A stretch of DNA of 64,000 nt from Physcia stellaris (taxonomy: Eukaryota; Ascomycota; Lecanoromycetes; Caliciales; Physciaceae), in NCBI GenBank assembly GCA_018902385.1, contig JABSSW010000027.1, positions 1 through 64,000 on the forward strand. The letters run 5' to 3'. How positions within the stretch are numbered: position 1 is the stretch's first letter; each line of letters starts with the position of its first letter. The notes beneath the pieces are model-generated. The model saw only the letters and a program-made list of their open reading frames with translations, searched no databases and was not told where the DNA came from. The position numbers and the translations under genes were made by a program. Positions 1 to 36,640 of the stretch are shown here, piece after piece.

Positions 1-1214
1 GTTGTCAAAATTTTTTTTTTCATTTTGTCATTATTAAAATTTTGATTTCAACACGATTTGATTGTTCGATACGAACGTTTTTAAATATAATTAATAATCG
101 TTGATTTTTAAATCAATTTTGTTGTCATTTTCGATATTTCAATCGAAAACATAAAAAAAAAATTCAAATTTTTTCGATTACGATATTGTGCGATTTTTTG
201 CGATATTTTCAACGAAAATCGTTATTTATTCATTCATCAAATGCTTTTTACGTTTCAAATTGCATTTATAATTTTTTTTCAATTTCAACAAGACGATTGT
301 TTTTATTTATTATTTTCAACGATTTCGCAATGAATAACAAAAACATTCGTGTTTTGAAATAACAAAATTTTACGTTTTTCAATTCGACAAATTCGTGATT
401 TGATTAATTGTTAATCAAAACACGTTAAAAATGTGACACGAACGATTGAATCGTTTTGAGCATTCAAAATATCATTCAAATGATTTATTAACATGATATT
501 GATTTTTCAAATTATTATCATCGAATTCGTGCATTTCTTGCGAAAAAATCAATGATAAAACGAAATTTTATCGAAAATTTATCAAATCAAAACGTCATTT
601 GACGATTTCATTCACGATAATTTGATGAATTTTTTTCAAAAAAACAAAATGATGTTTATTGAATAATGATTTGAATTGACGATTTAAATTCAAATGTTTC
701 ACGTAAACATTTTATACGACAAAATATTTTTCGAAATTTTGATTTCATTCAAGAAATTTTGAATATCATCAACACGATCATTTTCGTTGCGTTCGTTTAC
801 GAATTGACAACGATAATAATTTTTTGAAAATGTTTTTACGATTTATCGAAAAAAACGCGACATCATAATGAAATTTTTTATTGTTGAAAATTTTCAAATG
901 AACGAATGCGTTGAACGTTTTAATTAAATTATCATGCGCAAAATCAACACATTTTTGAAAAATTCAAAATTGTTCATAAAATGATAATTCGAATTTGTTA
1001 ATGTTGTCAATCATATTCGTAACGTTTTTATTTTCATTTTCGTAATCGACGACAATGATAAATTAATATTTTTTTATCAAAAATTTATTGATCATGTTTA
1101 TTTTATCGAAAAATTTCGTCGTATCGATCAAAAAAAAATATTTGATAATCAAATTCAATATTGATTGAAAAAAAATTCAAAATCATCGTCAACGTGAAAT
1201 TTTGATAAAATACG

Positions 1215-3322
1215 ATGAAAAATCATATATCGAATAATCATCATTTCGAACAACATTTATCGTTTTTTCAACGTCGAATGATTGAACAACAAACGATTTC
1301 ATTCAACGACAAAATCATTTGCGCAAACATTTACGAATCAAATCGACATTTTTTAGACAATTTGAACGTGAAATTCAAAATGACAATTATTGCATCGATA
1401 TCATTTTTCGTTTCACACAAATTCAATCGCAAAATTTTTTCAAAATAATGCGTTCGTGATTTTTGACACGTTCGATTTCGAAAACGATTTCGAAAAATCG
1501 CAAAAACAACGTCAATTTGTTTTTTCGTTTTTTATTTTGAAAAATTCAATTCGATCATTTTTTACGTTGTTTGATAATAATGTCGACGAATTGATTATCA
1601 ATATTTTTAATTTCGTTCAATTCGAAATCGTCAATATTGTCAATCAATTCGAAAAAACGTTGAAACAACATTTTTATTTGCGTTTTCGTCGTGATTTTTC
1701 AATGAATTTTTTGATTTTGTTGATTCAATATGTTTTTTCAAATTTTCACGAATTCAAAATTTACAATAAAACAATGACGAACGTTCAACACAAAATGAAT
1801 TGACAATTAAATATGAACAATAAAATGCAATTTCATAAAAACAATGACATTTGAAAATTCGTGTTTTTCGTGTTTCAAAATCGTAAAAAATTTTTTGATA
1901 AATGAATTTATAAAAAAAAAAATCAATGATGAAATGATCAAATATAAAACACGTTGATATATTCGAAATTTCGAACAAAAAAAAATTTTAATTATCACGA
2001 AACGTTTTCAATCGTGATTAAATTTATGAATTACAAAATTATTTTCGTTATCGTCGTTGCGAATAATTGAAAAATAAAACAAATGAATGTCAAAATCGTC
2101 TTTTTGTATGAAAACATCGATAAAAAAATTTATGTGAAATTTTTTTATGAATATATTGATTTTAAACGAAAAATGTATTGTCGTTTACGCAAAATTTTTT
2201 ATGAATTCAAACAATCGTTTCGAATTTGATTCAACATTTTAATCAATTTTTTTAAAAAACATGAATTTTTTTTTTGAATGCGAATCAAAATGTTTTTTTA
2301 ACAACAAAATCATTATTGTTATTTACGTGAACGATTTTTTTATTGTTAAATTTAACAAAAAATTCATTCGACAAATCAAAAAAAATTTCAATAAACGTTT
2401 TCAAATAACGAACATGAAATCATTTGTTTATTATTTAAACATAAACGTAACAAAAAATAAACAACAACGAATTTTTTGTTTCAATCAAAAAATTTATTTG
2501 AAATTTTTTTTCAAAAATCATGAAATATGAAATGTTAATTATAAAATCACATTTATGAACGTCAACATCAAATTTGAATTTATTGATTTTGATTACATTT
2601 GTTTCGTTTTCGACAAATTTCGTTATCAATTCGTCGTTGATTTTTTCATGTACGCGATATTTGAAATTCGTTTCGATATTGTATATGCGATATCAATAAT
2701 AAATCGATATGCATTTAATTTCACGAAAATTCATTGAAAAATTGTCATCAAAATTTTCAAATATTTTCGACATTTTTTCGATTTGTTTTTCATTTTTTTT
2801 GAATTTTTTCGTTTTTTGACAAATTACATCGATGTCGATTAAATTGACGACAAAAAAATTCGTCGTTCAATTTTCGATTACATTTTCAATTTCGATAACG
2901 AAATTATCAATTGATCATTCAAACGACAAATCATTGTAATTTTTTTTATTTGTGAAATCGAATATATGAATCAAATTCAAATTGTCAAAAAAATTATTTG
3001 ATTATCGAATTTGTTGAACGAATTGCAATTTTTCAATGCGATCAAAAATAATTTAATTGTTTATGAAATTTTTGTTTATTGTTTCGTTGTCATCATTATT
3101 TATTGCGACAATCAAAAAACACAAACGTTAATTCGTAATTTCAATCAACACGTTCGAAACAAACATATCGATATTCAACAACATTTCGTCAAAAACAAAA
3201 TGCAAAATAATATTTTGAATTTGCAATATGTTTTTAATGATCAACAAATTGTCGACGATTTAATCAAATTTTTGTTCAAAAACAAGTTTTTGAAGTTTCG
3301 TCGCGACATTGATTTGATGTAA
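1215..3322 (+). mobile_element. Ty1/copia retrotransposon fossil
   Basis: Decayed long terminal repeat element of the Ty1/copia superfamily on the plus strand. The reverse transcriptase palm and the following connection lie at about 2,261-2,737, and the copia-type RNase H segment, with the pattern around IYCDNQ and the KHIDIQ-HFV block, lies at 3,011-3,322. The order reverse transcriptase then RNase H at the 3' end is what separates copia from Gypsy. Open stretches at 1,215-1,803 may be older parts of the same element, but I do not recognise them. No matching LTR pair was found in the window, so the 5' end may lie outside it. The element is clearly broken at many sites and old. Confidence 0.75.
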
Positions 3323-6095: not shown

Positions 6096-6289
6096 TGTTA
6101 TGCGTAAAATGTAAATTGATTGATTTAAAAATTATGAACGACAAAATGTCAATTTATGTACAATAATTGCGAATCAATTGTTTGATCATCATTCATTTAG
6201 TATGAAATGACGACAAAATTCTTGTCAAATGTTTTGCAAAAATATTCGATTTAATTTCAAATCATTCAATTTGATTTTGTATCATAACA
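6096..6289 (-). repeat. LTR of outer Gypsy element (3' LTR on minus strand)
   Basis: This 194-bp copy is near-identical to 22,654-22,847, with TG...CA ends. It is preceded by GTATA, the left half of the proposed target-site duplication. The differences between the two LTRs that I noticed are transitions. Confidence 0.8.
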
Positions 6290-6510
6290 ATCTGTCAAAA
6301 AAAAAAAAAAAATCAATGTTTTCATTGAGTTTTCATGTTTTATCATTATGCGTAATCATATCATGTATCATTTTTTTTTTTCGTTTTTTGTTTGTCGTTG
6401 CGATCATCAAAATTTTGCGAATAATTGAATTCGTATTGTTCAATGAGATTTTGAAAATTCTGTAATTCGAAAATAAATCGTCATTCGTCATATTTCGATT
6501 CATAGTCGAT

Positions 6511-7843
6511 TTATCTGACTAAATATTGAATTACGAGAATTCTGTTGTATTTTCTGATACGTTTGTCGATTAACTTTTCAATTTCATAAAATTTGTACTG
6601 ATTCGTATCGTTTTCGATTTCAATAAAATCAAAATAATGAAAACGCGAACGATTGTAAAAATCAATTTCGACAAATGTTGATTCAAATTGTGCAATAAAC
6701 ACAACGAAATGAATTCGTCATGTTGATGACAATTTTAATCGATACGTTAAACGTTTGATGCGTTCAAAAATTCGAAATGATTCGCAACGTTGTTGAAATA
6801 GTTTCGAATTTGATTTGTCAAACAATTTGTATTTTTTGTTGAATTGTAAATAGATTTTTTCATTTTGTTTTAATCGAATAAAAATATGACGTGAATCATA
6901 ATATATTTTGATTTTGACAATTGCAAAATTCGTGACATCGACAATTTTTCGTTGATATTTCATGCGTTAAATTGACAAATTTTGTACATTTGTTATGTTA
7001 AATTCGATTAAATTTGATATCGCGTTTTTGATTTTGAATTCGTATATGATTTTCATTGAATGATAAATTTGTAACGATGTTAAACGTATTGTTTAACTGA
7101 ATTTAAATTGCGAAAAAAAAAATTAAAATGTAATCGATGTTCGAAAATTCGATGACGAAATATTTGATAACAATTTCAACAATTTGATTGATTCGTTTTG
7201 ACGAATCGTTCGTTTGCGAATGATATGTCATTAAAATTAACAATTTCGTGTTTAATTTGATAAAAAAATCTGTCAAAAATTCGACATGAATTTTGAATTT
7301 CGATTTGAAATTATAATTTCAAACATTTTTCAATCGATTATTGAAATTTGTTCAATAATGCGTTGATTCATTTTTTCGTTTCATAAATGTTTTTGTCGAA
7401 AATCAATGAAATTCGACGAAAATATTTACATGTTGCGAACATAACAATGTTCATTTCGTCGAACATAATTAAAATGAAATCAATCGCAATAATGTGAAAT
7501 GAACGCGAAACGAATGTGATAAACATGAATTTTTCGTACGATCGATAACGTTTGATTTGTGTTAATTGACAAATAAAACAATGCTCGATGTATTTTTTAA
7601 TTTTTCGCGAAAATCGAAATATGTATAACGTATTGAAAATTTTGTCATAACATCGATGAATTTTGAATGTTGATTTTGATCGTGAATTAAACGAAATATT
7701 TTTCGTTTCATTGTGACAAATATACACGATCGACGCGAATCAATGTCAACGTAATATATAATATCATTCGTATTTATCGCGAAATTGATTTTTGTTTTGA
7801 ATTTTTTTGATATAAATTTCGTATCGTCATTTTTTTTGTTCAT
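6511..7843 (-). mobile_element. Integrase and chromodomain remnant of outer Gypsy element
   Basis: On the minus strand 7,562-7,843 and 7,368-7,727 contain an integrase zinc-finger pattern (histidines followed by CFIC) and the start of the catalytic core. The stretch 6,718-6,963 resembles the integrase tail that in fungal elements precedes a chromodomain (YDSRHIFIRLKQNEKIYLQF). The stretch 6,511-6,702 ends in KYNRILVIQYLVR, which matches the start of a retroelement chromodomain. Confidence 0.72.
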
Positions 7844-8417
7844 TGACGTTTCGATTCTTTACGTTGTTTTCGAACGACGACGAAATTTGAAAATTTCGAA
7901 TCGACAAATTTTGTTTTTTTTTTCGTGCATTCGAATTGTCAGCGATTTTAAGCATTCTGATTATGTTTCGTCATTTTTTTTTTTTTTTGATATTCGTTTT
8001 TGATTTTTTTTTTTAAATTTTTCGACATGACAATAAAAATGTTTTGAAAAACGTAACAGTCGAAATTATTCGAAAAATCGATTATTTCGTCATGATATGT
8101 GTTCAAATCAAATTTATTTTTTGAATTTTTGTCGATTTGTTCATTTTCAGAAATTAATTTGATAACGCATTCGAAACGACATGATTTTTTTTGATTTATA
8201 TTTCATTTTCAATTTAAATTGTGACAAATAAATTGAAACACGAACAAAGACGAAAATTGAATTTATCGATGTTGTTCGAATTCATCGTGATTTGTTTAAC
8301 GATAAAAATATTGACGACATAATTCGTGAAAACGACAATGATATTTTTGATTGTTTTTATCATATGTCGAATTTTTTTGACAATTCATATTAAATTACAC
8401 ATTTCGAATTCGATCAA

Positions 8418-9147
8418 TCAATATTTGATTTCGATTTCGTTCAACATTTTGTTTAAAAATAAAATGAATTCGATGTCGTTACGCTTAAATTTGTTTGAAT
8501 TATTATTTGTTTTAAAATGATAAATCATCGCGTCGAATTCGCGTCGTTTAAACGCGTCGATGTCGATGTACAATTTTCGATCGAAATTGAAATATATCAA
8601 AAATGAAATTTTGCTAAAAGTTTTTTGCAATAATCGATATGATTTTAATTTTTCAATTGAAAAATTGTTCATTACGATTTTTTGCGAATAAATTTTGCGA
8701 ATAATGTTTTTTGTTGAAAAATGATTGACGTAAAAATAAAATTTTGCGACGTTGTAACGCGTTCGTTTTTTGAACATAAAACGCGACGAAATTTTCGTAA
8801 TCATTCTGTTAAATTTAAATAAATTTTCAAATTTTTCAGAATATATAAGAAATTTAATTTGATTATTGTTTTCAATTTATCGATTGCGATAATAAAATCG
8901 AAAACGTCAATTTTTTGATCAAAAAATACGATCGTAAAATAGTCGAAAAAAAATTTTTCGATGAAAAATTAATGTCATAAATATTCAATCGTTCGAATAT
9001 CGAATGTAAATGAACGATATGTTTTTCAAAAATATTGAAAAAAACAACAATATCATTTACGTAAACACGAGCAAATTCGCGAAAATTTCGAAAAATAAAA
9101 TCGATTCGTCGTTGTACGTATGATGATGAATTTTTGAAATTCATCAC
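8418..9147 (-). mobile_element. Reverse transcriptase/RNase H remnant of outer Gypsy element
   Basis: The minus-strand translation of 8,872-9,147 carries the reverse transcriptase palm box (YVNDIVVFF, a relative of YVDDIVVFS) followed by the expected HLHSIFERL-type helix. The stretch 8,418-8,804 resembles the fungal Gypsy RNase H segment, with LYIDIDAFKRREF comparable to the LYIDLDASK-type consensus. These are remnants of one polyprotein region and not a host gene. Confidence 0.75.
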
Positions 9148-9226
9148 GAATTAAATTGTTTTTGTTTTTTATGTGAAACGACGATAAATTTATATTTGTT
9201 TGCAAACTTTATCAATCATTAATGAA

Positions 9227-9403
9227 TGTCAAAAAGTCGTCGCATGTAATTAATTGTATTGAAATTGACGAATATATTAATTATGCAAAAATATTAATTA
9301 CATATTGAAAAGTTTTTTATTTGCGATAATCATTCGATTAGTCGTTTCGTTGATTCGCAAATTCGTTTTCGAACATGACAGAAATTCGAAATCAAAATCA
9401 TCA
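9227..9403 (-). repeat. LTR of nested Gypsy element
   Basis: Near-identical over its length to 16,516-16,693, with the shared internal core TCGTCGCATGTAATTAATTG. The distance between the two copies (7.29 kb) is what a complete Gypsy element would give. Confidence 0.75.
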
Positions 9404-10427
9404 CATTTTTTTTTTTAAGATTTCGCGAAATTTCGACGAGTTCGTTTCGTTGTTTTTTTTTGCATGTTGTCATAAACGATCGTTAAATGTATTAATTCAA
9501 CTTTTGAATCTTTTGAAGCAATGCATAATGTTCATTTGAAAACGAAATGTACGTGAAACAATCATTTTAATGCGTTTTCGTTTTTTCAATGATTTTACTA
9601 AACGATTAGAATTGATTTTCAGTAATTGCGTTCGTTCGTTTTTATTAACATTTCAATTGTTTCACTGAGTTCTTTGCTATTTTGTTAGTTATTTTGATGT
9701 TCAATTTTCAAATCGTACAAAAATTGCATTGAATTCGTTTTTTTGAATGTTTGTGATGAAAATTTGCTATCAAATGCGACGTTGTTTTCAAATCGATCGT
9801 CTGTGTATCAATCGAACGTTGTATTAAAATTATTTTGTTTTGATCATTTTATTCGATATCTCAAACAATTTTTAATTCTTGTGACTGAATCATTCATTTT
9901 TTTATCAATTTTGAAATTCAGAATTTCGTTTATTTTTCAGAAATCGTTATTGAATCGATTGCAACAAATGAAAATTGCACGTTCTGTTGTTCAAACATCG
10001 AATTTTCATCATCGAAATGTAAAAATCAAAAATAAAACATTGAAAAGCATTTTTTCATGATTTGCGACAATTTCAATTCGTAAACACAATTGTCAATCAC
10101 TCGTATGATTTTGAAAAAATTCAAATTTTTATAGTCGAAATTTTTGTTGAATCGCATGATTTTAATATATCGTGCATTCAACATGATCATGTTATTCATT
10201 TTAAATTCAAATGCAAATGTTCGATGTGCGTTAACATATTTTTTTTGTTTAATTTGAAATCATTTGAATTCGTTTTTCAAATATTTTTTTAATTTTTTTT
10301 GTTTAGAACAATGAATTTATCGACATTTTTCATTTTTCGTTGTTGTACAGATTTTTCAATTATTGAAGTCGATGACTTCAAGTCTGATTTAAAAATATAA
10401 TTTTTAGTGATTAAAAATGACTTAATG

Positions 10428-11658
10428 TCACTTGATGCATTTTTGTTGAAATTGTTTTCGAATTTTGCTATAAAAAAATAATCGTATCAGTCGTTTTGAT
10501 TGAAATTGACGTAAATTTTCAAATATTGTTTGAAATTTGCATTGACGTTCTCGATTTGATCGTTTGTTTCTGAATGTCAAACGATGAAAAACTTGAAATG
10601 AATTTTTATTTTTTCGCACAATCGCTGTCAGAAATAAAACACGAACTGAATGTTTCGATTTGATATTATTGAGTTTGAATAATTTTTTTTTTTTCATATT
10701 CATTTTATGAAGATCTGTATCACTACATTGATTTTCAAAAAGTTTAACGAAATATATTTTTTCTTTTTGAAAAATCTATTCACGATAATCATGATGTGTT
10801 CGTAATTTTTATCGTTACGTTTGCATATCGATAAAAATGTTATGAAATTTATTGATATGTTTTGAAAATAACGATTCGATATAAATAACGATTTCAACAA
10901 TTTTTGTTTATTTTTTCGATATGTTTTGATTTTTTTGCATTGATGACAATTTTTGACGTATCGAATTATCGTATCGATCATGCGTGATCAAAAATAATGC
11001 GTAAAAATTTTGTCATAAATTGTCGTTTTGTCGACATGTTCGTCAAATAATAACTCGTGTATTTGTTTAAATATTGTTGAAAAAACGTCATCATTGTGTG
11101 ATACGTAAAGTTTGTTTTTTATTCAAAATAATTCGTTTTTTATTTCGCAATTTTTTAATTTCAAACGTATTTCGATTTTGATAATGTTTGTCGATATTCG
11201 TTTTAAATCATTGCGTTTACTTTTCATTATTTTTTGTAAAATGATGTCATCGAGATATGTCGTTTTTATTTGTTTTATTATATCGAATTGAAACGTGAAT
11301 GAATCAATCATTGATTTTTTTTTGATTTTTCAATTGTTTTTTTTTTTTTTCAAAACACGTTTTGCAAACGATTTTTCATTGATTTTTCGTTTGCAAAAAG
11401 TTTTTTTTTCAATTCGTATAGAATAATCGCTAAGATAGTGACATTTTTTTGATTTTCATTCATCAGTAAAAGTGCGAGATTGATAACATTACGAATTTCT
11501 GTTTCAAGATAATGAGATTTAAGCAAAATGCGATGATTGAATTGTTGACGTTCGTCGTGTTGTTTTTTTGACAAATTTTGAAATTTTCGAATTAAATTAT
11601 TCGATTTAGTGTTTTGAACTTTTGATCGATAAATTATTTTAAAATTGAATTCGATCAA
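10428..11658 (-). mobile_element. RNase H end and integrase remnant of nested Gypsy element
   Basis: On the minus strand, 11,350-11,658 starts with an FNFKIIYRSKVQNTKSN-like block, the conserved end of the Gypsy RNase H region. The stretch 10,700-10,981 carries the CHQCKKIKTYR finger of an integrase followed by SINFITFLSI, corresponding to the start of the catalytic core. The stretch 10,428-10,703 would be the downstream integrase part. Confidence 0.75.
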
Positions 11659-12212
11659 GAATTCGATTCATTTGATTTGTCGACGATTCAATTGTTTAAA
11701 TGTTATGAAATGTTTCAAATTTTTGTGATCGATGAAAATTTTTATGAAATTTTTTATCGAAATTTTTGCACATTCAAATCGTCATTTTTCGAACGTTTTA
11801 ATTATCGTTAGCAATTTTTTGTCATAAATTTCGTAATTGCATTTCGTTGAAAACATTTTTTTGAACATGTATGTCATTGAATGAAATTTGTCGTTTGATT
11901 TTATTTGATTGAAAATCGTCGCAACAACGAAATCGAAAACATCGATTTTTATTCACGTTTCGTTATTTGAATTGAAATGTTGTAATATAAATGCAATTGT
12001 AAATGTCAATTTTAAAATTCGAAACGCGATTTTTTCAAAATCGTCGAAATTTCATGAAAATGCGAAATTTTTTTTTTCGTTTTTGATTAATTTATTCAAA
12101 AATGTAATTATTTTGAAATAATCAAAAATGAACTTTTTATAAAAATTAACGAAATCGAGAAAAGTCTGAACGTTTTTGACGCATTTAGAAAATTTTCAAT
12201 TGATTATGACAT

Positions 12213-12871
12213 TCATTTTTTGAAATTTATCGTGATTTCATCTGTTGTTATGATCAATTCGAGATATTTAATTGATTTCACAAAGAATTCAAATTTGTCG
12301 ATGTTCAAATACAATTTTGTTTTTTTCAATTTGATTAACATTTTAGACACGTGATTCACATGAGCGTTTTTAATATCGCTGTAAACAATGACATCGTCGA
12401 CATATTTTGAGCAAAAATCATCGAGATATTTTTTCAATGTGACATTGATAAATGTTTGAAACGTTTTCGAAACATTGCATAATTCGAAAAGCATGATCAC
12501 ATATTCGAATAATTCATAACGAATCAGAAACGTTGTTTTTTTTTTTTTTTGATGCGTATTTCGTTGAACGCAACTATGATATCGAATTTGCTGTAAATTT
12601 TTGTCGAGCACAATTTGATCAACGTTTTTCTAATCAACGAAAATGCGTTTTTATTTTTGATCGTCAACGCATTGAAAATTTTATAATCAACACACATTTT
12701 TAAGTTATTTTCGAATTTTTTCATCATCAAAATCGATGCGACATATTCGAAAAAATTAAATTTGATGAAATTTTTGCTCAACATATCGTCGATATATTTT
12801 TTAATTATTTTGATTTGATCGCGAAATAAATCGTATGTTTTTTTTGTTGACGATGTCGTTTCGAATTTCAA
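12213..12871 (-). mobile_element. Reverse transcriptase remnant of nested Gypsy element
   Basis: The minus-strand translation shows the usual order for a Gypsy reverse transcriptase: a helix containing YIDDMLSKNFI, then the KMCVDYKIFNALT box, then the palm motif YVDDVIVYSD and LELIITTDEI. Similarity to fungal Gypsy polymerases is obvious by eye. Confidence 0.8.
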
Positions 12872-13408
12872 ATCGATGCGATGATTTCATTTTTTTTTGA
12901 AAAACAATTTGTTGATTTCGACAAAATTGAAAATCTTGACGTATTTGTGAAATTTCATAAAAAAATTTTTTTCAATTGTTTTTTCGTGAGCGAAACTTTG
13001 TCAATTTTGTTGAAAAATTTCTCGAAATTTTCGACAAAAATTGTTGTTATGTTTATCGCAAAAGAATTCGTCAACATGTATTTATTTTTTTTTTTTAAAT
13101 TTATTCAACATTTCAAAGTGTTTCGAACACATTGTTATAATTTGATTTTTGTTTTGAATCGTCATTTTCATGAATGCAATAATTGTGATTTCGATTATGT
13201 CGACATCGATAAACGATTTTTTGTTCGACGATTTTTTGATATCGACGTTGTAAATCGTTGTTGATTGATAATTGTGAATGCAATTTTTTAAACAATGATC
13301 GAATGCGAAAATTATCGATTTATTTTCGCATGATATATTCATTGAATGTTGTTTCAATCAAAACATATTCAAAATCAAATCGAATTTTTTTAAAAATGTT
13401 ATCAAGCA

Positions 13409-15741
13409 TCATATTTCATTGACATGTTTTTTTAATTGAAATTTTATTCGAATCATGCGAATGATATTGAAAACAAATTTATCATCGATTAATCGTAATT
13501 TGATCGACTTGATAAAAACAATGATATTTAATTTGTGTCGTTTTACGAAATTGACATTCACGAAATTTAACGCAAAAATTTTTGTATTCGTTATAATCGA
13601 TGTTTTTTTGATTTCAAAAAAAATTTGAATTTTTTTTTGAAAATTTAATTGTCGTTCATTGTTTATTTTGAATTGCAACGCGTTTTGAATTAATGATAAC
13701 AATTTGACGATATTGAAATGCGAATCGATTATTTGTTCGAATTGTTTGATTCGTTTGCGTATTTCGTCAAAAAAATTTTGAACACGATTTTGTTCAAAAA
13801 TTTTTAATTTTTCGACTCATTTTTTGTAATCGATTCAAACTTCTTTTCAAACAAAAAATGATTTGATTTTGTTTTTATTTCATTTCATTCGATTTCAAAT
13901 TCTGCTAATTCAGTTATGATTTTTTTTTTTTAAAATTCGTTTTTTGATTTTTACAAGAAACATCTTGTTCATTGACTCGATAATCAAATTTGAAACATTT
14001 GTAACATTTATTTTCGATTTTTAGTTTGAAAACAATATGAAAAAAAAATCGAATTAAATTGTATTCGACATTTTTATTTTTAATTATACGATTGAAAACG
14101 AATGCGTCGACGATTTTATTTTTGATTATTCGAAAAAAAATTTTCGTGATTTTAATTTTGAACGTTTTTGTTGTTTTGAATTCGATGTATCGATCAATAT
14201 CGTTCAAAAAAATTTTTTGATGAATTATTGTTCGTATTTTTTTCACGAATTTATGATAATTTTTGCATTCGAACAAATGAATTATCGCGTTGATCAATCG
14301 TTTATTGATAATTTTGAACAATTGATTGACTTTCAAAACATTATTTAAATTCAATGATGTTATCAAGTTATTGAAACGATTCAAATATTGATCAAAAATT
14401 TCGTTTTTGTCTTTGAATTTCATAAAGAATTTGTCATCGAAAAGTTCATTTGTATGCATTGTTCATTTTGTCGAAATTCAAAAACACATTTTTCAAATCG
14501 TTTATTAGTTTTTCGATCGATTCGTAAAAATGTGAATTATTATAATCGATTCGATGTTCAATGATATTTCATGTCAAATTTTTGCAATGATTTCGTGCGT
14601 AATAAATTTTATTTTTTTCAATAAAAAATTGTCATGAATTCGATTCGAATTTGATTTTTAAATGAGTTTTTCATTTTTTTTATTCGTCATGATTTTCATA
14701 GAAGTTAAAAATGTTCTGATATTTAATTTTATGTTCATGAGAAACACGGGTCGCTAAAAATTGCTCGTTTAAAAAAATTGACTCGTGAGCATGTTCAAAG
14801 ACTCGTTTTTGAAAAAGAATAATGAATTTTCGTAAAAAATTTTTAAACAACAGTTCGATCATTTCGACATCGCGTTCAAAGTTTTGACGTTTAATTTCTG
14901 TTCGAAGATTTTTTTGATCGAAATCGTCAATGAAATCTGATTGACGTGATTGTTTATTGATGAATTTCAAAATTTTTTTTTCAAAAATTGTCTTGTCGAG
15001 TCGTAACGTTTTTATTTTTTCGATTAATTCATTTTTTCGAAATCGATGTTGATTTTTACAACGTTTCATTTTAGTTATTTTCATTTTTTGACGAGTTAAA
15101 TCATTGACAGCAATTTGATTGAATAACAATTGATTTTCGATATCGATCAATCGAAATTGTAAATCGAACATTTTTTGAGTTTGAACGATGTTTTGACGTT
15201 TTTGTTTTTTCAATTGTACAACAATTTTCGCATGTTTTTGTTGAACATTCTGTTTTAATTTTTTGATTACATTCATTTCATCAAAAAACATGAAAATGTT
15301 TTGCATTCAATTCGCTGATCGTTCAATAACATTTTTTTTGAATTTATCAATGTTTTTTATCATGAATGAAATTGATGATTTGACATTTTTGTCAATCAAT
15401 TTAAAATATAAATTCAATGTTTTTTTTTTCACGATGATAATTTTTTGATTCGCAAATTCGAATTTTATAATAAATCGTCGATGAAAACGTTTATGTCGAA
15501 ATTGATGTCGAATTTTAATGATTGAAAATGTTATTTGAAAATCATTTTCGCGAATCGATGTGTGTGAATTTAAAAACTCATTTTGTTGTGAATTTTTCAC
15601 ATTTTTTTTTTCGTTTTTCGTTTTTGAATTTGATATGTCATGCTTCAATAAAAAATTCGAAAAATTGAACACTTTGAATTCGTAAAATTTTTCTTGAATG
15701 ATTTGATTTTGAATGTTCAACATTTTCTTCATGCGATTCAA
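13409..15741 (-). mobile_element. Gag/protease side of nested Gypsy element
   Basis: Three long minus-strand open stretches lie upstream of the reverse transcriptase. The stretch 13,914-14,459 looks like the retrotransposon gag family (DKNEIFDQYLNRFNNLI pattern) and ends in a CYKC-type cysteine cluster. The stretch 13,409-13,702 resembles the protease-linked region before reverse transcriptase. The stretches 14,680-15,306 and 15,307-15,741 are rich in Lys, Gln and Glu and look like a long coiled coil; I cannot name a domain for them. Confidence 0.6.
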
Positions 15742-16157
15742 ACGCGTGCTGAAAATTGATTTTTTGAAAAATTGACTTGATTGCTTTGCAAAAAATTCGA
15801 ATATTTAATAAGTGAATGTTTTTTCGTCAAATAAATCAAAATAATGAATTGATTTTCGAATTCGACTGATACGTTCACGATTCGTCATATTGAAAGAGAT
15901 ATGTAGCGACGACATTTCAGATTCTGATTCTGAATGAATAAAAAAATTAAGTCGAGTCAGTTTAGACGTCGATGATATCGTGATTTTTCACTTTTTGTTT
16001 CAAGTATGTTTTGAATTCGTGAACTGATAAATAGTGAAAAATAATAATAAAAGTAAATGTCGTAAATTTCGTAACGTTGTTTGAATAATAAATAAATAAA
16101 ATTTGACATTTTAATGTAAATGTTTCGTGTAAAAAATAACATCGAAATCAACATTTT

Positions 16158-16450: not shown

Positions 16451-16515
16451 TTATTGACGAATGATTACAATCGTTGAATAATCGTCGTTGTCAATCGATT
16501 GAATAATTAATATTG

Positions 16516-22847: not shown

Positions 22848-23459
22848 ATATATTTGATAAAATACGTTAAAAATTAAATAAATTTAAATTTTCGCGAAAC
22901 ACGTTAAACAACAAAATAATTTGACGATTAAAACAAACAATCGTTGTTTTAATCGACGACAAAAATTTTGTTCAATCAATTTCGTCAATTACAATAAAAA
23001 CGTTTCGCGTTAAATTGCATTGTTTTTTGATACATATTTGATTCGCGTTGATTGTAATACATTTATTTTTTCAATTTTTGTGTTTTTATATTAAAATTCA
23101 ACATAATGTTTTCGATTTACGATTGATTCGATTGATTAATTCAATGATTTCAAACAAATTAAATCGAATCAAAAACGCGAAAATCGACAATGCGAAATTT
23201 TATATCATTCACAATCGATATTCGAAATTGTTTTTTTTTTCGATAATCAATGTTGCAATTAATTGTTCACGAATTAAATTATTCAATCAAATGATATTGT
23301 TGATTTAAAAACAAATTCATTATTTACACGCACATAGCAAAATACATTTAAATACAACAACAAAAAAACGTACAAAAATCATTCAAAAAACGCAAAATTA
23401 TTTCGAATAATTTCAAAAATATATCGAACGACGAAATCGATACAAAAAACGACGACAAT
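22848..23459. other. AT-rich spacer between two Gypsy elements
   Basis: Part of the site into which the two neighbouring LTR elements inserted. It holds only a short plus-strand open stretch (23,048-23,308) that I do not recognise. Confidence 0.5.
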
Positions 23460-23656
23460 TGTAACGAAACGAAATCGATCAAACGAACGTTAAAACGTTG
23501 CGAACTTAACTGTCGCATTTCGTGCTTATATACTCGAAATTTCACGAATTTCTTTTTGTTTTTTTAGCAATTAATTCTACTATGTGTTTAACATTTATCA
23601 TAGCAATTCATATTATTATTCGCACATTCTAGTCACGCAATGTTTACATTTTTACA
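23460..23656 (+). repeat. 5' LTR of plus-strand Gypsy element
   Basis: This 197-bp copy has the same length as 30,701-30,897. It begins TGTAACGAAACG, contains the GTCGCATTTCGTGCTTATAT block and ends in TTTACA. It is preceded by ACAAT. Confidence 0.87.
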
Positions 23657-24031
23657 ATTTTAATTGCTTTACATCAAGAATTGTTCGATTAAAAATGTTT
23701 AATTCAACAAATGCGTTTCGTCGTCGCGAAATTCGTTCGCAAATTCGTGATCGTGCGATCGTATCGATTGTATCACAATCAAACATTATTTCATCAAACA
23801 ATTTTTTTATGTTTTTTTTTTATCGATCGAATTATTGAATTGTTTGATGATATTCAATTCGAAAATTTTGATAAAAACAATGATTTTGTCGATTTTGATA
23901 ATATCGACGTTTCAATTAAACACATTTTAATTTTCGAATTTTTGATTTCAAATATTAATTAATTTTTCAATTCAACATTTGTTACGCATTTTAATCAAAA
24001 TGAAACACAACGAAAAAACAATTTTGTTTCG

Positions 24032-25280
24032 TTGTCGTCAAATAACGATGTCGTTGTGTTTGTTGTTGTCGATTCAAACGTGATTTTCAAACAAATAAAA
24101 ATGCGTATCAAAATGTTAAAAATTGAATCAAAATTCAATAATTTTAAAATATTTTTGATCAAAACGAAAACGAAACGTGATCGAAATCGTCGTCGTTGTC
24201 GCAACAACGATAATCAATATAAAAATTCGTTTTCGCATATCAAAAAACAAATCGCACGATCAAAAATTTCAAACACGCAAAAATGTGAAAATTGAAACAA
24301 TTTGAAAAATTGATTGCGTAATTGCGAAAAATATATCGTTTTCGATTTTGTTAATTTTCAAATAAAAAAAATGAAAACAAATTGATCGACGTCGTTTTTG
24401 ATAACGACAAAAAAAAATCAATAACGTAATTATGTTGATGTTCAATTTGAAAAACAAACATAAAAACAATATAAAAATTATTTGTTGACGTTATTTAACA
24501 ATTCGATAATTCGTGTCATGAACATAATTATTATTATTGAAAATGTTAAACAATTGTTTCGACAAAACATTGTTACGTTTAATCAATATTTAATCAAATT
24601 GTAAAACAAATTGAAACGTCACGTTTCGAACGAAAAACGACAAAAAAAATTGTTGATCAAAATTCATGTTTTCATTCGTATCAAATGTGTAAAAATGCGA
24701 AATCATGAAATCGATTTTTATTTCAAATTAATCGTCAATTTGTTGATTGCGAAACAATTGTTTGTCGACAATAATACGTTAAATAAATCGTCGAACAATG
24801 TTACGAAAACAAAACAAAATAATGAAAATAATCAAAAAAATCAAAAAAATAACAATGACGACGATAAAAATAAAAACAAAAAAATTTCGCATAACAAATT
24901 TGTTGAATTTGACAACGTTCAAAAAAACAATCAAAATCAATTTTCGAAATCGCAACAGCATCAACAAAATAAAAAAAAATGAAAATCGAAATCAAAATCA
25001 AAATTTCGCATTTTCAAAATTCGAAAAACGCATATGTTTTTCATGTCACAAATCGAATCACATAACAAATGATTTTATGTGTGAAAATTATGCGCAAATT
25101 AAAAAAAAAACGCAATCAAAATCAAAATCAATCGTCGAAAAAAAAACGAATTTAATATTTGTCGTTAAAATATTGAAAATAAATTTGAAACAAAATAAAT
25201 TTCGTGTTTTAATAATTATGTTATTAATCAAAACATTTATTATTCAAACAAACAATATAACAATTATTTTGTTTGATTGA
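24032..25280 (+). mobile_element. Gag remnant with CCHC zinc knuckle
   Basis: Overlapping open stretches on the plus strand end in a Lys/Asn/Gln-rich segment and a CCHC knuckle of the form C-x2-C-x4-H-x4-C at about 25,035-25,082. This is the standard end of a Gypsy gag. It belongs to the element at 23,460-30,897. Confidence 0.75.
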
Positions 25281-28017
25281 TTTTAATGTCGAAACGAATT
25301 TTATATCACAAATTTTTGTTAAACAAATGCAATTGTTTGAATTCAAAAAAATTGTTAAACAACATATAAAAATTGTTAACGATCGTGTAATTCAAATATA
25401 TGAATATTATGAAAACGTGCATATCATGACACGAAATAACGAAAAACATGTAAAAAAACAAAATGTTGATTTTTGAACGATTGACATGCGTGAATACGAC
25501 ATGATTTTTGAATATTCATGATTGAATGTTGTCGATTTTGACATTCGTTAACATAATCGTCGTTAATTATATCGTGATGATAATTATGAAAAATTCAAAC
25601 AAATTTCAATCAATTTTTGTTTTGCGAAAAATTCGTTGATTTAATTATAATTGTCATTGCGAATCGCGATCGTGTTTATGTCGCAATGTCATATCAAATG
25701 TTTTTTTAACACAAAATTATCAATATCGAAAACGAAATATTGTTCGTTGTGATGTTTTACAAATAAATCGCAACGATTACATTTTTGATGTTATTAAAAA
25801 AATAATCGAAATATTTTTCAAAACGTTGTCAAACAATTTGAATACGTATGATCAAATCGAACATATTATTGATTTGCAATCAAACAAAAAATCGCGTTTT
25901 GAATTTATATACAATATGTCGCATGACGAATTTATTGTTATACGCAATTATTTCGAAAAAGCGTTGACGAAAAAATGAATTCGTTTTTTCAACGCATTTG
26001 CGAAAATATTTGTGTTGTTTGTCAAAAAATCAAATGACAATTTGCGTTTATGTGTGAATTATCGAAAATTCAATGAAATTACGATCAAAAACAATTATTC
26101 ATTGTCGTTGTTGTTTGAAACGTTAAAACGTTTCGCGAATATTAAACATTTTATCAAAATAAACATTCGAAATGCGTATTATAAAATTCGTATTCGTCAA
26201 AAAAATGAATGAAAAATTGTTTTTCGTATTCGTTATAAATAATACGAATATCAAATTATGTTTTTCGATTTTGTTAACGTTTTTGTTATTTTTCAATTTT
26301 ATGTTAATGAAACATTAAAATCATACATTGACGTTTTTTGCGTGATATATTTGAATGATATGTTAATTTATTTCGAAAATAAACAACAATATTGAAAACA
26401 TATTCGTTTAATGTTCAAAACGTTATTACGTTATCGTTTGTATGTTAAATTGAAAAAATGCGAATTCAACAAAAAAAATCAATTTTTTAAATTTCGTTGT
26501 TGAACGCAATGATATTCAAATGAAACGTTCGCGTATAAACGCAATCGTCGATTGATTTGAATTCGAAAATGCAAAAATATTATGATTTTTTTAAATTTTG
26601 TTAAATTTTATAAACGTTTTGTTAAAAATTTTCGCAAATCGTAACATCATTTACGAATTTGACGCGTAATGCGAAAAAAAAAAAAAATCGTTTTTTATTT
26701 GATATGACAAAAAAATTAAAATTACGTTCAACGAATTCAAAATTAAATTCACGATTGTTTTTATTTTTACGCATTATGATTGAAAAACGAAATTACGTAT
26801 GAAAATTGATGTTTTTAATCGCGAAATAAATGATGTGTTCAATCAAAAAACAAAAACGATCAATGATATTTCATTGCGTTTTTCAATTACAAATTCAAAA
26901 ACAAAAATTAATTGAAATACGCATGACAAAAAATTGTATGCGATAATGTTTGATTTCAAAAATTGAAAACATTATTTGCAAAATAACAAACATTTCATTC
27001 GCGTTATTTTTGATCACAACAATTTTCGATATTTTATGACAATCAAAAAATTCAATGCGAAACAAATTCGTTAAATTGAAAAATTAATTGCGTTTGATTT
27101 CAATATAAAATATCGTAAAAACAAATTGAATTTTGCGAACGCGTCGTCGAAAAAATTTGATATTATAAAATCGAACGATAACGACAAAAACAACGATAAA
27201 TTTTTGTTTATTTTGCGAAACAAATTTCGCAATCAAAATTATCAATTTGATTTGCAAAACGATTAACGTGTATTTATTTCAATCAAATTTGCAACATCGA
27301 CAACGCGATTGCGTAACATTGTTACGACAAATATTCGAAATATTGTTTCGAATGAAAAAGTTTTCGATAAATATGTTTGCAAAATTTTAAACATTGTCGC
27401 ATTTCGATTTTTAATTCATCAAATTATGAAATCGAAAAAATTTTATTTGAAATTGCGAAAATCAATAATTGCGTGATTATTCAAATTACAACAAAAAAAC
27501 GTTTTTGTTGTTGAAAAACAATGACGTCAAAAATACGCAAACAAACAAAACGAATTTTCGAAATAAAATGTTGAAAAAAATAAATTGTTTCGTCGTGATT
27601 TCGCAATTTATGTGTTTGAAAATTTCGTTACAAAACAAAAAATTTTTATATAAATCATGACGATTCAAATATTGAACATTTTGCGCAAACAAAAATCGAA
27701 AATGTTGTGCAACGTAAATATTTTTGATTTGACATAATTAAAAAATAACAAATTATATACGTATTTGTTCAAATTGTCAACGAATGCGAATTCATCGACA
27801 TAAATTTTACGACGATATGATAACAATTTCGTCAAAAAAACAATTATTCGATACAATTATCATGAATTTCATTACAAATATGTTTTTTGTTAAAAAATTT
27901 TACATTGAAAAAATTAACGATTCAATATTAATATTGATAAACAAATTGACAAAATACGCAACGTACATAATAATCACAAAAACGTTAAACGCGATAAATT
28001 TTGCGAATTTGTTATAA
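25273..28017 (+). mobile_element. Pol remnants (protease, reverse transcriptase, integrase)
   Basis: The stretch 26,012-26,212 carries the LRLCVNYRKFNEITIKN box of Gypsy reverse transcriptases and the following IKINIRNAYYKIRI block (normally K-DLRxAYxxIRI). A palm-like segment (IYLNDMLIYF) lies near 26,340-26,370. The stretch 27,784-28,017 contains MRIHRHKFYDDMITISSKKQ and a following LTKYATYI block, as in the integrase linker and core. Confidence 0.75.
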
Positions 28018-30700: not shown

Positions 30701-30897
30701 TGTAACGAAACGAAATCGATCAAACAAACGCTAAAACATTGCGAATTTAATTGTCGCATTTCGTGCTTATATATTCGAAATTTCACGAATTTCTTTTTGT
30801 TTTTTTAGCAATTAATTTTACTATGTGTTTAACATTTATCATAACAATTCATATTATTATTCGCACATTTTAGTCACGCAGTGCTTACATTTTTACA
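30701..30897 (+). repeat. 3' LTR of plus-strand Gypsy element
   Basis: 197-bp partner of 23,460-23,656. It is followed by ACAAC, matching the ACAAT in front of the 5' LTR apart from one transition. Confidence 0.87.
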
Positions 30898-31384
30898 ACA
30901 ACAATAAAAATTCAAAAAAAAAAAACATAAATATTACATCAAAACGACGTTTGACAATTGTTGTAAATTAAATTATTCGTGAATGATTCAACAACATATT
31001 GAATTATTTATCATTTAAAACAAGTTTGTTCGGAATTTTTTAAAAAAAAATTTGCTGAGTGATTTTCAGAGTTAAAATCAAATCTGATAAGATTGCGAAA
31101 ATCTTCGCATCGAAATCAGAATTTCAATGATTTTGCATTCGTTTTGCGATTTCATCGATTTCGCATCTTAATAGCATTTGCACTTAATAAATAAAACATA
31201 CAATCGAAAATTCATTTTGAAATTTGAAGTGAGTTCTATTCAAATAATCAAAAATATCGAAAATTCATCGTTGTCGCATTGAGTTGTGATGAAAATCGCA
31301 TCATCGCATTGCAAACATTGCGAAAAATTGAATTATTCGCAAAATGCGAACACAAATTTGACAAAAACATAATTTTTCAAATTT

Positions 31385-31730
31385 CACAACTATTGCGATA
31401 ATGAGTCGATTTTTATCATTTTTGCAACGTTAAATTGCGCTCATTCTGCTTTACAACTTTGACTAGTTAATTGTATATCATGTGTGATTGTTGATTGAAA
31501 TGCAAAATGCGAAATAATTGTACAAACGACGAAACGTTGAACGAAATTTTTTCGCAAACATTTCAATTGACGATTTGACACAAATTTGACAACGACGAAA
31601 TCTTCGAAACTTCAAAACTATTGCGATAATGAGTCGATTTTAATTATTTTTACAGAGTTAAAATGCGCTGATTTTGCTTTACAATTTTGATTAGTTAATT
31701 GTAAATCATATGTGATTCTTGATTGATGTA
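31385..31730. repeat. Left subterminal direct repeats of the TIR element
   Basis: Two copies of a block starting ACTATTGCGATAATGAGTCG, then a run through GCGCTxATTxTGCTTTACAA, then TAGTTAATTGTA-ATCAT-TGTGATT, begin near 31,389 and 31,619 (about 230 bases apart). The reverse complement of the same block occurs near 32,545-32,640 and 33,950-34,095. Copies of the left pair also occur at about 45,310 and 45,541. Confidence 0.75.
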
Positions 31731-31902
31731 TAAGATGTGAAATAATTGCACGTCGCTGAAGCGTTTTGAGATGATCTTGACGTATGTTTCGATTGGAAAC
31801 GTGAATTAAATATTGATTGAATTTATCGACTTTAAGCAACGAGACTCTCGTATTGATCAGAATTCTTCTCGGTCGATCACTCGCGTTAAACGAATATACT
31901 GA

Positions 31903-32149
31903 ACATTTTTTTTTTATAGATTGTGTTCTATTTGAATATCAATCGATATTTTTAACATTTTTATATTAATTGTGAAAAAACAATCAACATTAAATCGAAA
32001 CAAATCAAACGATTTCATTTTTTTATCAAAAACGAACAATCGAAATATCGACGTGATATAAATCGACATTTTTTCGACAAAATTTTTTGTTACATGAACG
32101 TTCGAAAAAATATCGATTATAGTACACAATCTATAAAAAAATGTTCAGT
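31903..32149. repeat. Inverted-arm insert (MITE-like, about 247 bp)
   Basis: ACTGAACATTTTTTTTTTAT followed by AGATTGTGT at the left is mirrored by ACACAATCTATAAAAAAATG then TTCAGTA at the right. The 185 bases between the arms are far more AT-rich than the sequence on either side. This looks like a small insertion with its own terminal inverted repeats, or an internal palindrome of the larger element. Confidence 0.55.
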
Positions 32150-32707
32150 ATTATTCTTATTTGACTTTTTGCCGAATCAGGAAGTCAACTTTCTCGAGGC
32201 AGAAACATCAACTTTCATCGCATTTTCAACCACAGTCATTCCGTGTGCACACAGATTCATGAAACTATCAAATTGTAAAGTTAATTGAGCGCATTTCAAC
32301 GCATTAACAATCGCATTAATTCGAGCAATACTGAGTTTGTTATGAGGTTTGAAAGTAAAATGATTTTCGAGCTCGTCGAGTCTACTCCGCAAATCAGGAT
32401 TTTTTCGTTAAATTCGATGTTTTCATCAATTGAGAATTCAGATTTCCAAAGAGGAAATATATCATTGCTTATTGAGTTTAGCACGAACATCGAAATTTTT
32501 ATGATCATACAATTGCTTTGCATTTTGTACATCAAGCAACAATCACATCTGGCGTTGATCTGCTGAAGTCAAATTATAGAACAGAATAAGCGCATTTCAA
32601 CGCATCAAAAATAACGAGAATCGGTTCATTATCGCAATAGTTACGATTTATGTAAGTTATTTGATTTGCTGAAAAGTCTGTCAAAATGACTCACTTTCTG
32701 CAGAGTC

Positions 32708-32770
32708 TCATTTGTTTATTTATTTACTCATTTATCTATTTATCTATTTATTTATCTACTCATTTATTCA
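32708..32770. repeat. ATTT/ATCT tetranucleotide microsatellite
   Basis: About 60 bases of imperfect TTTA/TCTA repeats inside the TIR element. Confidence 0.85.
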
Positions 32771-34186
32771 CGCGAAATTGAAGTCTCTCAAACAGCTGCA
32801 CGTTCGTCATGAAAAGTTTTTTCGATTTCGATTTATGCAACAATGTTCGTTTTCGAAAACAAATCAACAAACACGTCAAAAAACGAGAAATTCGCGAGAA
32901 ATATCGAAAACGAATTATTTTTTCTTTTTTTTTCTTTTTTTCTTTTTTCTGTTTTCGACGATTCAAATCATTTTCACGAAAATTCTTTTTTATTGTTCGT
33001 AAACAGTTTGCTCAAAAGCATAATTTTATTCAATACACATACGATATGAACAATGTCGACAGAAATTACGATGTATCATTTTCAACTCGACGTTTTACAG
33101 AAAACATTTTTTCATTGAAGAGATCGTTGAGAGATCGACAGCTAACGTTTTGCAAGATTATTCAACATGAAATTATTGAACAAGATCGAAAGTGACTAGA
33201 AGACACGATTGACGAACATCTCGAGATTTTCGATCGCATCAAAAGATCACGATATCAAGACATTCGAAGTCATTTGCTCGATGTTTTGCAAAAAGACACT
33301 TTTCGTCGATTCGATTCATCATATTTTCAAACATTTCACGACGACAACGACGAGAACGTCGAAGCAAACATTCGTTCTTACATCGAAAATTTTCGATCAA
33401 TATTTGAATTCGAAACAAGAAAAAAATAACATCGATTGAGTGTTTCTAAAACGTTTCAAGAAACGTAAAAAATGAATCATGATTGATTTTTTCAAAAAAT
33501 CGTTCGATCATGAGATGAAATTGTTGAAGAAATCGAGAACGTTTTCAGTCATTTCACGTCTTCTGCAGGAAATACGCTCAGATTTGATCAATATTGTTGT
33601 TTTTCGCAGGAGAAACACAGATAATTTCTGTTTGCAGACGTTGTTGAAAATCATCGAGAAGAAAAATCATATTGCAGTCTTCAGAAGTCAGCATTTGTAC
33701 ATAGAATTCAGAATGACCGATATTAGAACAAATAGATTTTGATATTTTATTGCGTTATATTCAATCGAGAATCATGATATGCTTCGAAGATGTGATCAAA
33801 TGACTGCAATTTTTGCAATCATGTCTGATATCGAGACTTTCAACATGTTGATTTGCGACATTCTTTCCAGATTTGGCTAGTTCAGAGTCTATTTGGCGCT
33901 CAATCATCGAATTTATTGCGTCGTACAGTTCTTCGCATTTTGCATTCCAATCAACAATCACTTATGATTTTCAATTATTTAGTCAAAATTGTAAATCAAA
34001 ATGAGCGCATTTCAACGTCGCAAAAATAACAAAAATCGATTCATTATCGCAATAATTCTGAAATTTCGAAAATTACGTCGTTGTCAATTTTGTGTCCGTT
34101 TCGGATATTGCAATTTTATCAGATTTGGCTCTAATCCTAAGAGTTTCCGACAAAGTTTTTTTTAAAAAAACTTCCGGATCTACTTG

Positions 34187-36640
34187 TACGATAATATTGA
34201 AAAATCATTAAACGACGAAAAAACAATTTTTTTAATAATGAACATGCATATTTGATAAAACAAATTTTTTTATTTTTAAACATTATTATTCAATAATGCA
34301 TCAAAATCAAATTAAACATTTAAACAAAATATAATTTCGATACGATCAACGATTTTATTTTGAAAATGTGAAAAAATGCAAACGAATGTTTGAACGCAAC
34401 ATAAAACGATATTCGAAAATCATGAATGTATCGTAAAATTTCGAAACGCGAATCGTAAAATTATTTATTTAAAAAATATGTAAATACATTAACGTCAACA
34501 CAAATATACGATTCAATCGACATTTTTCGATTTAATGCAATTTACAAAATCAAAAACACAATGATTTCGTATTATAAATTTGAAATCATTGTCAATTTTC
34601 ATCAATTGATTGCGAAATTGTTACACAATCATGTTTTCATTCGTTTTAATTACGAAAATTTTGAATCGAAAATAAATAAATGTGTGTCAATTATTATAAT
34701 AAAAATTAACAAATGTTGTGTAATTTATTTCATTTATTGTCGATATTATAATCATCGCGATTTACGACATATTTTTTAAAATTTTCAAAAATAATTTCGA
34801 TTTTCAAATGTATATCAAAAACATATTCAATAAATTTCGTTTTGTTATAATATTTTTTGTGATCACAATCATACATTATGCGATTAAAAAATATTTTGCG
34901 AATGTTAAAAAAACAAACATAACGTTCGAAAATTTAACGATAAAAAATATGTTACGTGTTATTTCGATTTTTTACATTATTAATATACAACAAACAATTA
35001 CGAATTTTACATGTTAATTTGAAAAAATTTGAATTTTTTTATTCAAAACGAAATTTGTAAATATTTTCAAAACAAAATCAAAAATCGAATCACAATCAAC
35101 GCAAAAAACAATGAAATTTCAAAAATTATTTCATTGAAATGTAATTATTTCATCGAAACGATCAAAATTTTGCGAAACAACAAAAAAATTGTTTTACGCG
35201 TTTTTACATCAAACAATTTTTAAATTGATATTAATAATTCGAATATGATCGATGAATTCGTTAATCGAAAAATTAATATCAATTATAACAATATCATATC
35301 ATGTTTTTTGAAAAAAAAAATTTGACACGATTTCGAATTTTCGTTTTGTTTTTAAATTTTTTACAAACAATGATCACGTGACATCAATTGTCGAAAATTC
35401 GAATATCGATTTATTGAAAACAAAAAAACAACGAAAAATAAAAAAAAACAAATTTAATACGAAAACGAAACAATTGAAAAACGTGTCGAAAAATTGATAA
35501 ATCGAATTTACACATGCGATATCAATGTGTTTATTGTTCAATCATAAATAACAAAATATAAAAAACGCAAATTTTGAAATCGAATTTTCGAAAAAAATAA
35601 AATTTATCATTTTATTGAACAATAAAACGATCAAAAATGAACGTTTATGTACGATTTGAATTGATAAACATAATGTAAAAAAATAAATATACAAAACGAA
35701 AAAATATTTGAATATATTTTGCATCGAAAATTCTGATTTATCAAAACGAATGAAAATTACAATTCAATGAAAAAAAAAATTGCAAATGAATTATAAAAAA
35801 CGTTTCGAAAAATCAATAATGATGCAAAAAAATGTGATTACGAAAACGATTTAATATATATTGAATACAAATTTTGCATTTCGTGTTTGATAAAAACAAT
35901 CAATCAAAATTTAATTGATAATTTAAGACAAATCGATAAATTTGATAATAAAAATGTCGTTAATAATCATTTTAAAACAAAAAATTCAAAACATACGCGA
36001 AATGAAAAAAATAAAAAATATTTGATACGACAAAAATAATACAAATTATCAATGAATTTGATATGTAAAAAACGATTTGAATGTTCAAAACAAAAAAACG
36101 AAATAAATGAAAAAATCATCATAAAAATATAATGATTTTTTGAATGCATGATGCGCACGAACAACAATCAACAAAAAAAAACATCAATCAAAAAATATGC
36201 GAAAAAAAATGAATTTATTTAATGCGTTTTGAAACATTTTAAAACAATTCAATGTTTTTTAAATAAATTTTAAATCAACAATGAACGATTTGAAACAAAT
36301 TTCAATTGTTTAAAATTTGTTTTTGACGAAACGTTGTTGATTTGAAACAATGAAAAACAATAATTTTGACTATTTGATTAAACGATTCGAAATGAATTTC
36401 AAACGTCAAAATCAATCGAATATTTTTTTCGACGAATATATTCAAACACGTATAATCATGATATCACGAGTTAATCGATAACGATGATGAATTATTAAAA
36501 TCGAAAAAATCGATTTTGTCGATTTAACATGCAGAAAAAAAAATGCATTCAAAATTTCGCGCGAACGCGAAAAGATGCAAATCGAAATACTCAAATTTCG
36601 TGAAAACGATGACGAAATGATTTGCGCGTTGCGTAATATG
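34187..36640. other. AT-rich stretch without recognisable feature
   Basis: Strongly AT-rich decayed DNA from the right end of the TIR element to the edge of the gene-bearing half. The open stretches (34,561-34,779, 34,808-35,017, 35,029-35,223 plus; 35,967-36,167 minus) are Ile/Phe/Asn-rich, as expected by composition alone, and match no family known to me. Confidence 0.6.

Follow-up and report, generated by a model that had tools for sequence, protein, structure and literature searches.

We analyzed a stretch of 64,000 nucleotides of the ascomycete Physcia stellaris (GenBank assembly GCA_018902385.1, contig JABSSW010000027.1, positions 1 to 64,000 of the forward strand), hereafter called the window, one half of which has lost nearly all cytosines that precede a pyrimidine. 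This decayed half (1-36.6 kb) has a GC content of about 25% and holds remnants of retroelements, and the gene-rich half (36.7-64 kb) has a GC content of about 49%. The latter, taken as the reference (36,701-64,000), encodes products related to SIR2, GT15 mannosyltransferase, ELO elongase, asparaginase, NmrA-like, UPF0029, GGACT, PQ-loop, SEP/UBX and OXA1/YidC-like proteins; of 18 open frames scanned there, 12 gave a Pfam match. Within this set, the GT15, ELO, SIR2, NmrA-like and OXA1-like products point to a fungus. A dispersed element occurs in both halves on the forward strand, as a more decayed copy at 31,006-31,931 and a milder copy at 44,928-45,853.

Counts on the top strand of positions 1-36,640 gave 12 CC, 20 GG, 276 CT and 336 AG, but 2281 CA, 2282 TG and 1982 CG. 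The corresponding observed/expected ratios were 0.02 for CC, 0.03 for GG, 0.16 for CT, 0.20 for AG, 1.35 for CA and 3.45 for CG, compared with 1.13 for CA, 0.94 for CC, 0.88 for CG and 1.05 for CT in positions 36,800-64,000. Across the 27 one-kb segments starting at 37,001, these ratios ranged over 0.98-1.27 (CA), 0.75-1.07 (CC), 0.69-1.24 (CG) and 0.81-1.21 (CT), the segment with the 45 kb copy of the element having the minimum CC, the minimum CT and the maximum CG. A preliminary description of this DNA had reported 10 CpA, 8 CpG and neither CpT nor CpC in bases 1-180, with no G preceded by A or G, and these counts were exact (ApG 0, GpG 0). Its broader statement, that CpT and CpC are erased from the AT-rich half and CpA and CpG spared, proved to be stronger than claimed, and CpA is indeed the commonest remaining C step.

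To express the loss as surviving fractions, we normalized to steps immune to the process, assumed the gene-rich half to represent the original composition, and used a block bootstrap for the ranges. In positions 1-31,000, a near-saturated decay zone, survival was 0.0008 (0-0.0022) for CpC and 0.096 (0.074-0.119) for CpT, that is, about 0.001 and 0.10, and 0.89 (0.86-0.92) for CpA/TpG and 1.02 (0.95-1.10) for CpG. The CpG value leaves no depletion of the kind expected from methyl-CpG decay in this zone. Taking as reference only the DNA outside open reading frames (9,462 bases) gave similar values (CpC 0.001, CpT 0.096, CpA 0.93, CpG 1.10). Among the pyrimidine-purine steps of positions 1-31,000, the share of TpA derived from the counts is about 1.3 times the expected one; this may reflect an originally different composition or a slow loss of CpA.

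The AT-rich half had been presented as a zone of decay, and it is one, but it is not uniform. The most complete stretch, 24,001-28,000, retains no CpC and three CpT on both strands together, out of 1977 pyrimidine-pyrimidine or purine-purine steps. CpT survival there is 0.006, compared with 0.17 in 9,201-15,900, and CpC is near zero in both (0.003 in the latter), so these zones may differ in age or in the number of rounds undergone. An island at 31,001-34,200, younger or less hit, is only partly converted (CpC 0.08, CpT 0.50, CpA 0.95, CpG 1.00). It is followed by a near-saturated zone adjoining the genes (34,201-36,400; no CpC and three CpT on both strands, CpA 0.85, CpG 0.79) and by an edge (36,401-36,700) in which CpC is absent and CpT is at 0.26 of expectation, with 10 sites remaining. 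The boundary is sharp: CC plus GG was zero in all eight 50-bp bins of 36,300-36,699, and the next four bins stood at 0.83, 1.18, 0.76 and 0.49 of expectation, on small counts. The shift from near-saturated decay to near-normal composition thus spans about 50-100 bp at 36,700, roughly 220 bp ahead of the stop-to-stop frame matching SIR2 (36,921).

The sequence context of the change was addressed with 481 settings of a one-base neighbour rule, some of them equivalent, in which C becomes T on both strands if the previous and/or the next base belongs to a given set. Each rule was applied to the normal, gene-rich half, and the resulting trinucleotides were compared with those of bases 1-31,000. The best rule changed C to T before C or T, whatever the 5' base, with a trinucleotide distance of 0.116; the runner-up among different rules reached 0.269, and comparing one half of the decayed zone with the other gave 0.115. 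Conversion of the normal half by this rule yielded a GC content of 0.245, compared with 0.247 in the real zone, and a trinucleotide correlation (r) of 0.995, and every added 5' condition worsened the fit. As predicted by pure exchange of C with T and of G with A, the frequencies of purine/pyrimidine steps matched between the halves within 0.002. In effect, each pyrimidine run has been converted to T except for its last base, which is mostly unaltered. Rules based on CpA, as in classical repeat-induced point mutation (RIP), were rejected as an account of the decayed half.

The two copies of the dispersed element allowed the changes to be read directly. Going from the 45 kb copy to the 31 kb copy, 91 of the 113 substitutions were C-to-T (36) or G-to-A (55), and C-to-T changes in the opposite direction numbered 8. 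With the context read from the 45 kb copy, changes affected 40 of 48 CpC and 44 of 88 CpT sites, but 5 of 129 CpA and 2 of 96 CpG sites, in line with the earlier observation that differences between the copies fall chiefly at CpC and CpT. The excess at cytosines before a pyrimidine (CpY) over those before a purine (CpR) was highly significant (Fisher test, p ~5e-37), as was that of CpC over CpT (p 1e-4). The 5' base had no large effect, either at CpC (ACC 12/15, CCC 10/11, GCC 9/9, TCC 9/12) or at CpT (ACT 12/28, CCT 4/8, GCT 16/26, TCT 12/26). The label of a terminal inverted repeat element is not supported: in 44,900-45,900, a repeat search (minimum length 14) detected a single direct repeat, which is internal, and two pairs of inverted repeats, neither pair being terminal at both ends. 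The internal direct repeat is about 173-190 bp long (45,276/45,504), and additional, diverged copies of it lie at 32.5 and 33.9-34.1 kb.

Partly decayed stretches gave the order of the rates. CpC was below CpT in the island, in the 9.2-15.9 kb zone, at the edge and, overall, in the 45 kb copy, and the ratio of the CC to the CT rate was 3.7 in the island, 3.4 at 9.2-15.9 kb and 2.5 in the 45 kb element. The order of preference is CpC > CpT >> CpA > CpG, with CpC changing about 2.5-3.7 times faster than CpT in these stretches.

The 45 kb copy also ties the process to a repeat. A BLAST comparison of the normal half with the window (E-value 1e-3, matches of at least 50 bp) identified the 44.9-45.9 kb element, with its internal duplication, as the sole stretch of the normal half having another copy in the window. 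No other stretch of the gene-rich half is as depleted in CpY: survival of CpY in the element was 0.61, compared with at least 0.84 in 243 other overlapping segments of similar length. At 44,943-45,853, survival was 0.46 for CpC and 0.73 for CpT (0.47 and 0.74 in the comparison of rates), with normal values for CpA (0.98) and CpG (0.97). The 300-bp flanks were near normal (left, CpC 0.69 and CpT 1.01; right, 1.22 and 0.87). This depletion is the best evidence here for a repeat-directed process, and it comes from one element only.

The targets of the decay include Ty3/Gypsy remnants. Frames were read with TGA as tryptophan (genetic code 4); TGA is expected, since TGG becomes TGA under the rule. 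In positions 1-31,000, 15 such frames of at least 200 codons were found, whereas 20 Markov sequences averaged 2.35. Some frames on opposite strands overlap each other (14.7-15.8 and 33.2-33.9 kb), so that openness of a frame is in itself weak evidence for a gene. The Pfam scan covered 15 of the 18 code-4 frames of at least 200 amino acids and two of six standard-code frames; five of these 17 had matches at 0.001 or better, one of them below Pfam's cut-off, and 12 had none at 0.001. Six frames rescanned at a loose cut-off gave further matches that were weak and unrelated. On the reverse strand, a Ty3/Gypsy-type pol remnant at 7,341-8,876 matched RNase H-like (PF17917, E-value 2.2e-7) and integrase H2C2 (2.4e-4, the match below Pfam's cut-off) domains. 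A second Ty3/Gypsy pol remnant on the same strand, at 10,292-14,020 within the 9.2-15.9 kb zone, comprises four code-4 frames with protease-like, reverse transcriptase, RNase H and integrase H2C2 regions, and lacks CCN, GGN and TGG codons. Pfam E-values in the decayed half were 1.3e-15 for RNase H-like, 2e-10 for integrase H2C2 and 1.3e-4 for protease-like domains; the reverse transcriptase match was found among solved structures (7.1e-5), and Ty3 Gag-Pol was the solved structure best matched by the RNase H frame (1.9e-6).

The codons of these remnants follow the rule. Six pol frames (1732 codons, two frames partly overlapping) contain 39 TGA, no TGG, no proline, no glycine, 58 CAA and 40 CGA, compared with 116 proline and 104 glycine in the 1787 residues of six open reading frames of the normal half. 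CAA and CGA cannot turn into stops under the rule. Without CC and GG there can be no proline or glycine codons, so that the absence of these residues is not separate evidence. Searches for tRNA genes (bacterial settings) and for Rfam families at gathering scores gave no matches. The sole tandem array listed at a score of 50 in the gene-rich half is an 11-bp repeat of 3.6 copies at 58,811-58,850.

The usual RIP indices had been predicted to call this region unmutated, and they do. With thresholds of TpA/ApT ≥0.89 and (CpA+TpG)/(ApC+GpT) ≤1.03 (as given in PMC3828140), none of 71 one-kb segments of the decayed half passed either one; of 53 segments of the normal half, 3 passed the TpA/ApT threshold and none the CpA one. 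Ratios adapted to the pyrimidine context separated the halves: (CpC+GpG)/(TpC+GpA) was 0-0.10 in decayed and 0.45-1.10 in normal segments, and (CpT+ApG)/(TpT+ApA) was 0-0.29 and 0.48-1.45, respectively.

Taken as a whole, these data make it probable that fungal transposons were hit by a C-to-T mutator of the RIP type, directed at repeats, with the order CpC > CpT >> CpA > CpG. An enzyme of this type that prefers C before a pyrimidine was the first option put forward in the preliminary description. It is supported by the next-base context, the rate order, the near completeness of the change, its action on both strands and its retroelement targets, all observed in the window, and by the link to a repeat, observed on one element. 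The C:G to T:A change on both strands, in repeated DNA (that one element) and in transposons, is as in RIP; the CpA preference with raised TpA/ApT and lowered CpA index is not found here. The mutator would act on transposons on both strands, in one or many rounds and presumably in the sexual cycle as RIP does, turning nearly all cytosines before a pyrimidine into thymine and leaving those before a purine almost untouched. RIP takes place premeiotically in a cross and requires a methyltransferase of the RID/Masc1 type, or DIM-2 for old repeats. RIP and C5-methyltransferases act on CpN steps, that is, with respect to the 3' neighbour, whereas deaminases of the APOBEC and DddA types recognize the base 5' of the cytosine. 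That the 3' neighbour alone decides suits recognition of the C5-methyltransferase type better than a 5'-reading deaminase. The catalyst would therefore most likely be a C5-methyltransferase of the DNMT1 family, a relative of RID/Masc1 or DIM-2 with 3'-base recognition altered relative to known species and with RIP-like action. A bacterial C5-methyltransferase has been redirected to CC by engineering (PMC10899764).

Several points weigh against this reading. The data come from one window and from one dispersed family, represented by two full copies; the window contains no partner for most of the decayed half, and we infer that its decay was repeat-directed. A non-repeated spot of the gene-rich half, 49,350-49,650, has CpC at 0.40 and CpT at 0.78; at the 300-bp scale, CpC fell below 0.45 in 3 of 179 segments, two in the 45 kb element and the third at 49,350. 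The segment 45,543-45,842, a third of the 45 kb copy, had CpC no lower than CpT (0.74 and 0.69). CpA/TpG survival lay at 0.86-0.92 and not at 1, so that CpA may have been slowly lost or the ancestral composition may have differed. Changes in the copy pair showed no strand clustering (42 runs, 44.5 expected, P 0.34). Finally, ten shorter and diverged repeat pairs, which are not independent and three of which include the 45 kb copy, differed by 15 changes per 13 mean sites at CpC, 93 per 104.5 at CpT, 58 per 264.5 at CpA and 44 per 198 at CpG, with 127 transversions. Although CpY leads, such diverged copies have differences at CpA and CpG as well, and the short pairs are therefore weaker evidence than the main copy pair.

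Among other explanations, a DIM-2-like enzyme might methylate CpY cytosines in heterochromatin, which would then change from C to T in mitosis. This would not be RIP proper; we consider it unlikely, though it is the one to be weighed most seriously. Dim2 of Zymoseptoria tritici is described as promoting mitotic C-to-T change in transposons in a fixed dinucleotide context, resembling the specificity seen here, but that context is CpA and CpT is described as hardly methylated (PMC8016269). In Neurospora, DIM-2 prefers CpT according to a review (PMC13297926). The graded loss between stretches would also suit such methylation, but the mild 45 kb copy lies in gene-rich DNA with near-normal flanks, a pattern that repeat-confined methylation could likewise produce. 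An APOBEC- or DddA-type cytosine deaminase acting on repeat DNA is improbable: it could change C to T on both strands under a strict neighbour rule, but rules with a 5' condition fitted worse, and the 5' base is what such deaminases read. More doubtful still is an artefact of assembly or conversion, or a junction of foreign DNA with fungal genes: the sharp edge at 36.7 kb would suit it, but the two halves share an element that shows the same pattern of change in each, retroelement domains are present and both strands are changed. Ultraviolet-type dipyrimidine damage, which does yield C-to-T at dipyrimidines, or general AT-biased mutation without selection is already contradicted by the rule tests and can hardly be entertained: TCA and TCG are spared, being 1.60 and 1.71 times as dense as in the other half, rules involving a 5' pyrimidine reached distances of 0.655 (either side) and 0.799 (5' side) compared with 0.116, and uniform C loss, tried at five levels, reached 0.61 at best.

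A RIP-type mutator with this context would share with RIP in Neurospora crassa, which depends on RID, the both-strand C-to-T change, the transposon target, the tie to repeats and the decisive 3' base. The order there is given as CpA > CpT > CpG > CpC (PMC5496416), in contrast to CpC > CpT >> CpA > CpG here, although a RIPCAL analysis placed CpT change above CpA in Neurospora Tad1 copies (PMC2621366). Trichoderma reesei also has an altered preference, but with CpA about equal to CpG, then CpT and then CpC (PMC5496416). CpT is strong, as here, in Magnaporthe, Botrytis and Sclerotinia (PMC4352252) and in Anisogramma (PMC10998396), but with CpA as a main step too in both reports. In the RIP-capable control fungi of van Wyk et al., CpT to TpT was dominant by alignment, and the screen itself uses CpA-based indices (PMC7882544). 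The parts of these three reports that deal with CpT do not name CpC as a main step, whereas here CpC is fastest and CpA spared. Transposon decay of the CpG type, clearest in Microbotryum and combined with CpA in Tuber (PMC4352252), differs in that CpG is spared here. CpA is reported as less preferred in Monacrosporium haptotylum (PMC3828140), and Monilinia shows CpA change plus some CpC-to-TpT double changes (PMC8959702). CpT alongside CpA is thus already known, and CpC first with CpA spared is what differs here. RIP confined to CpC and CpT, or with CpC fastest and CpA spared, was not found in the literature searched; Clutterbuck 2011, which lay outside this search, could hold a precedent. A 2025 survey of 1,239 fungal genomes by Badet and Croll concluded that a CpA preference is common to RIP-like defences (PMC12543289).

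The window speaks against the universality of that preference (PMC12543289) for at least one fungus. It is rather likely that a fungal lineage has a repeat-directed C-pyrimidine mutator that takes CpC first, leaves CpA and CpG intact and is missed by CpA-based indices, whether the enzyme is a relative of RID/DIM-2 whose target-recognition domain has been re-specified or a separate one. A repeat mutator can then use a nearly inverted context, and indices built on CpA can miss decay that is nearly complete. Under this rule, nonsense codons would arise through TGG to TGA, and CCN and GGN codons would vanish. If a natural enzyme prefers a different 3' base, the way in which RIP selects its cytosine would become testable, through comparison or swaps of recognition domains.

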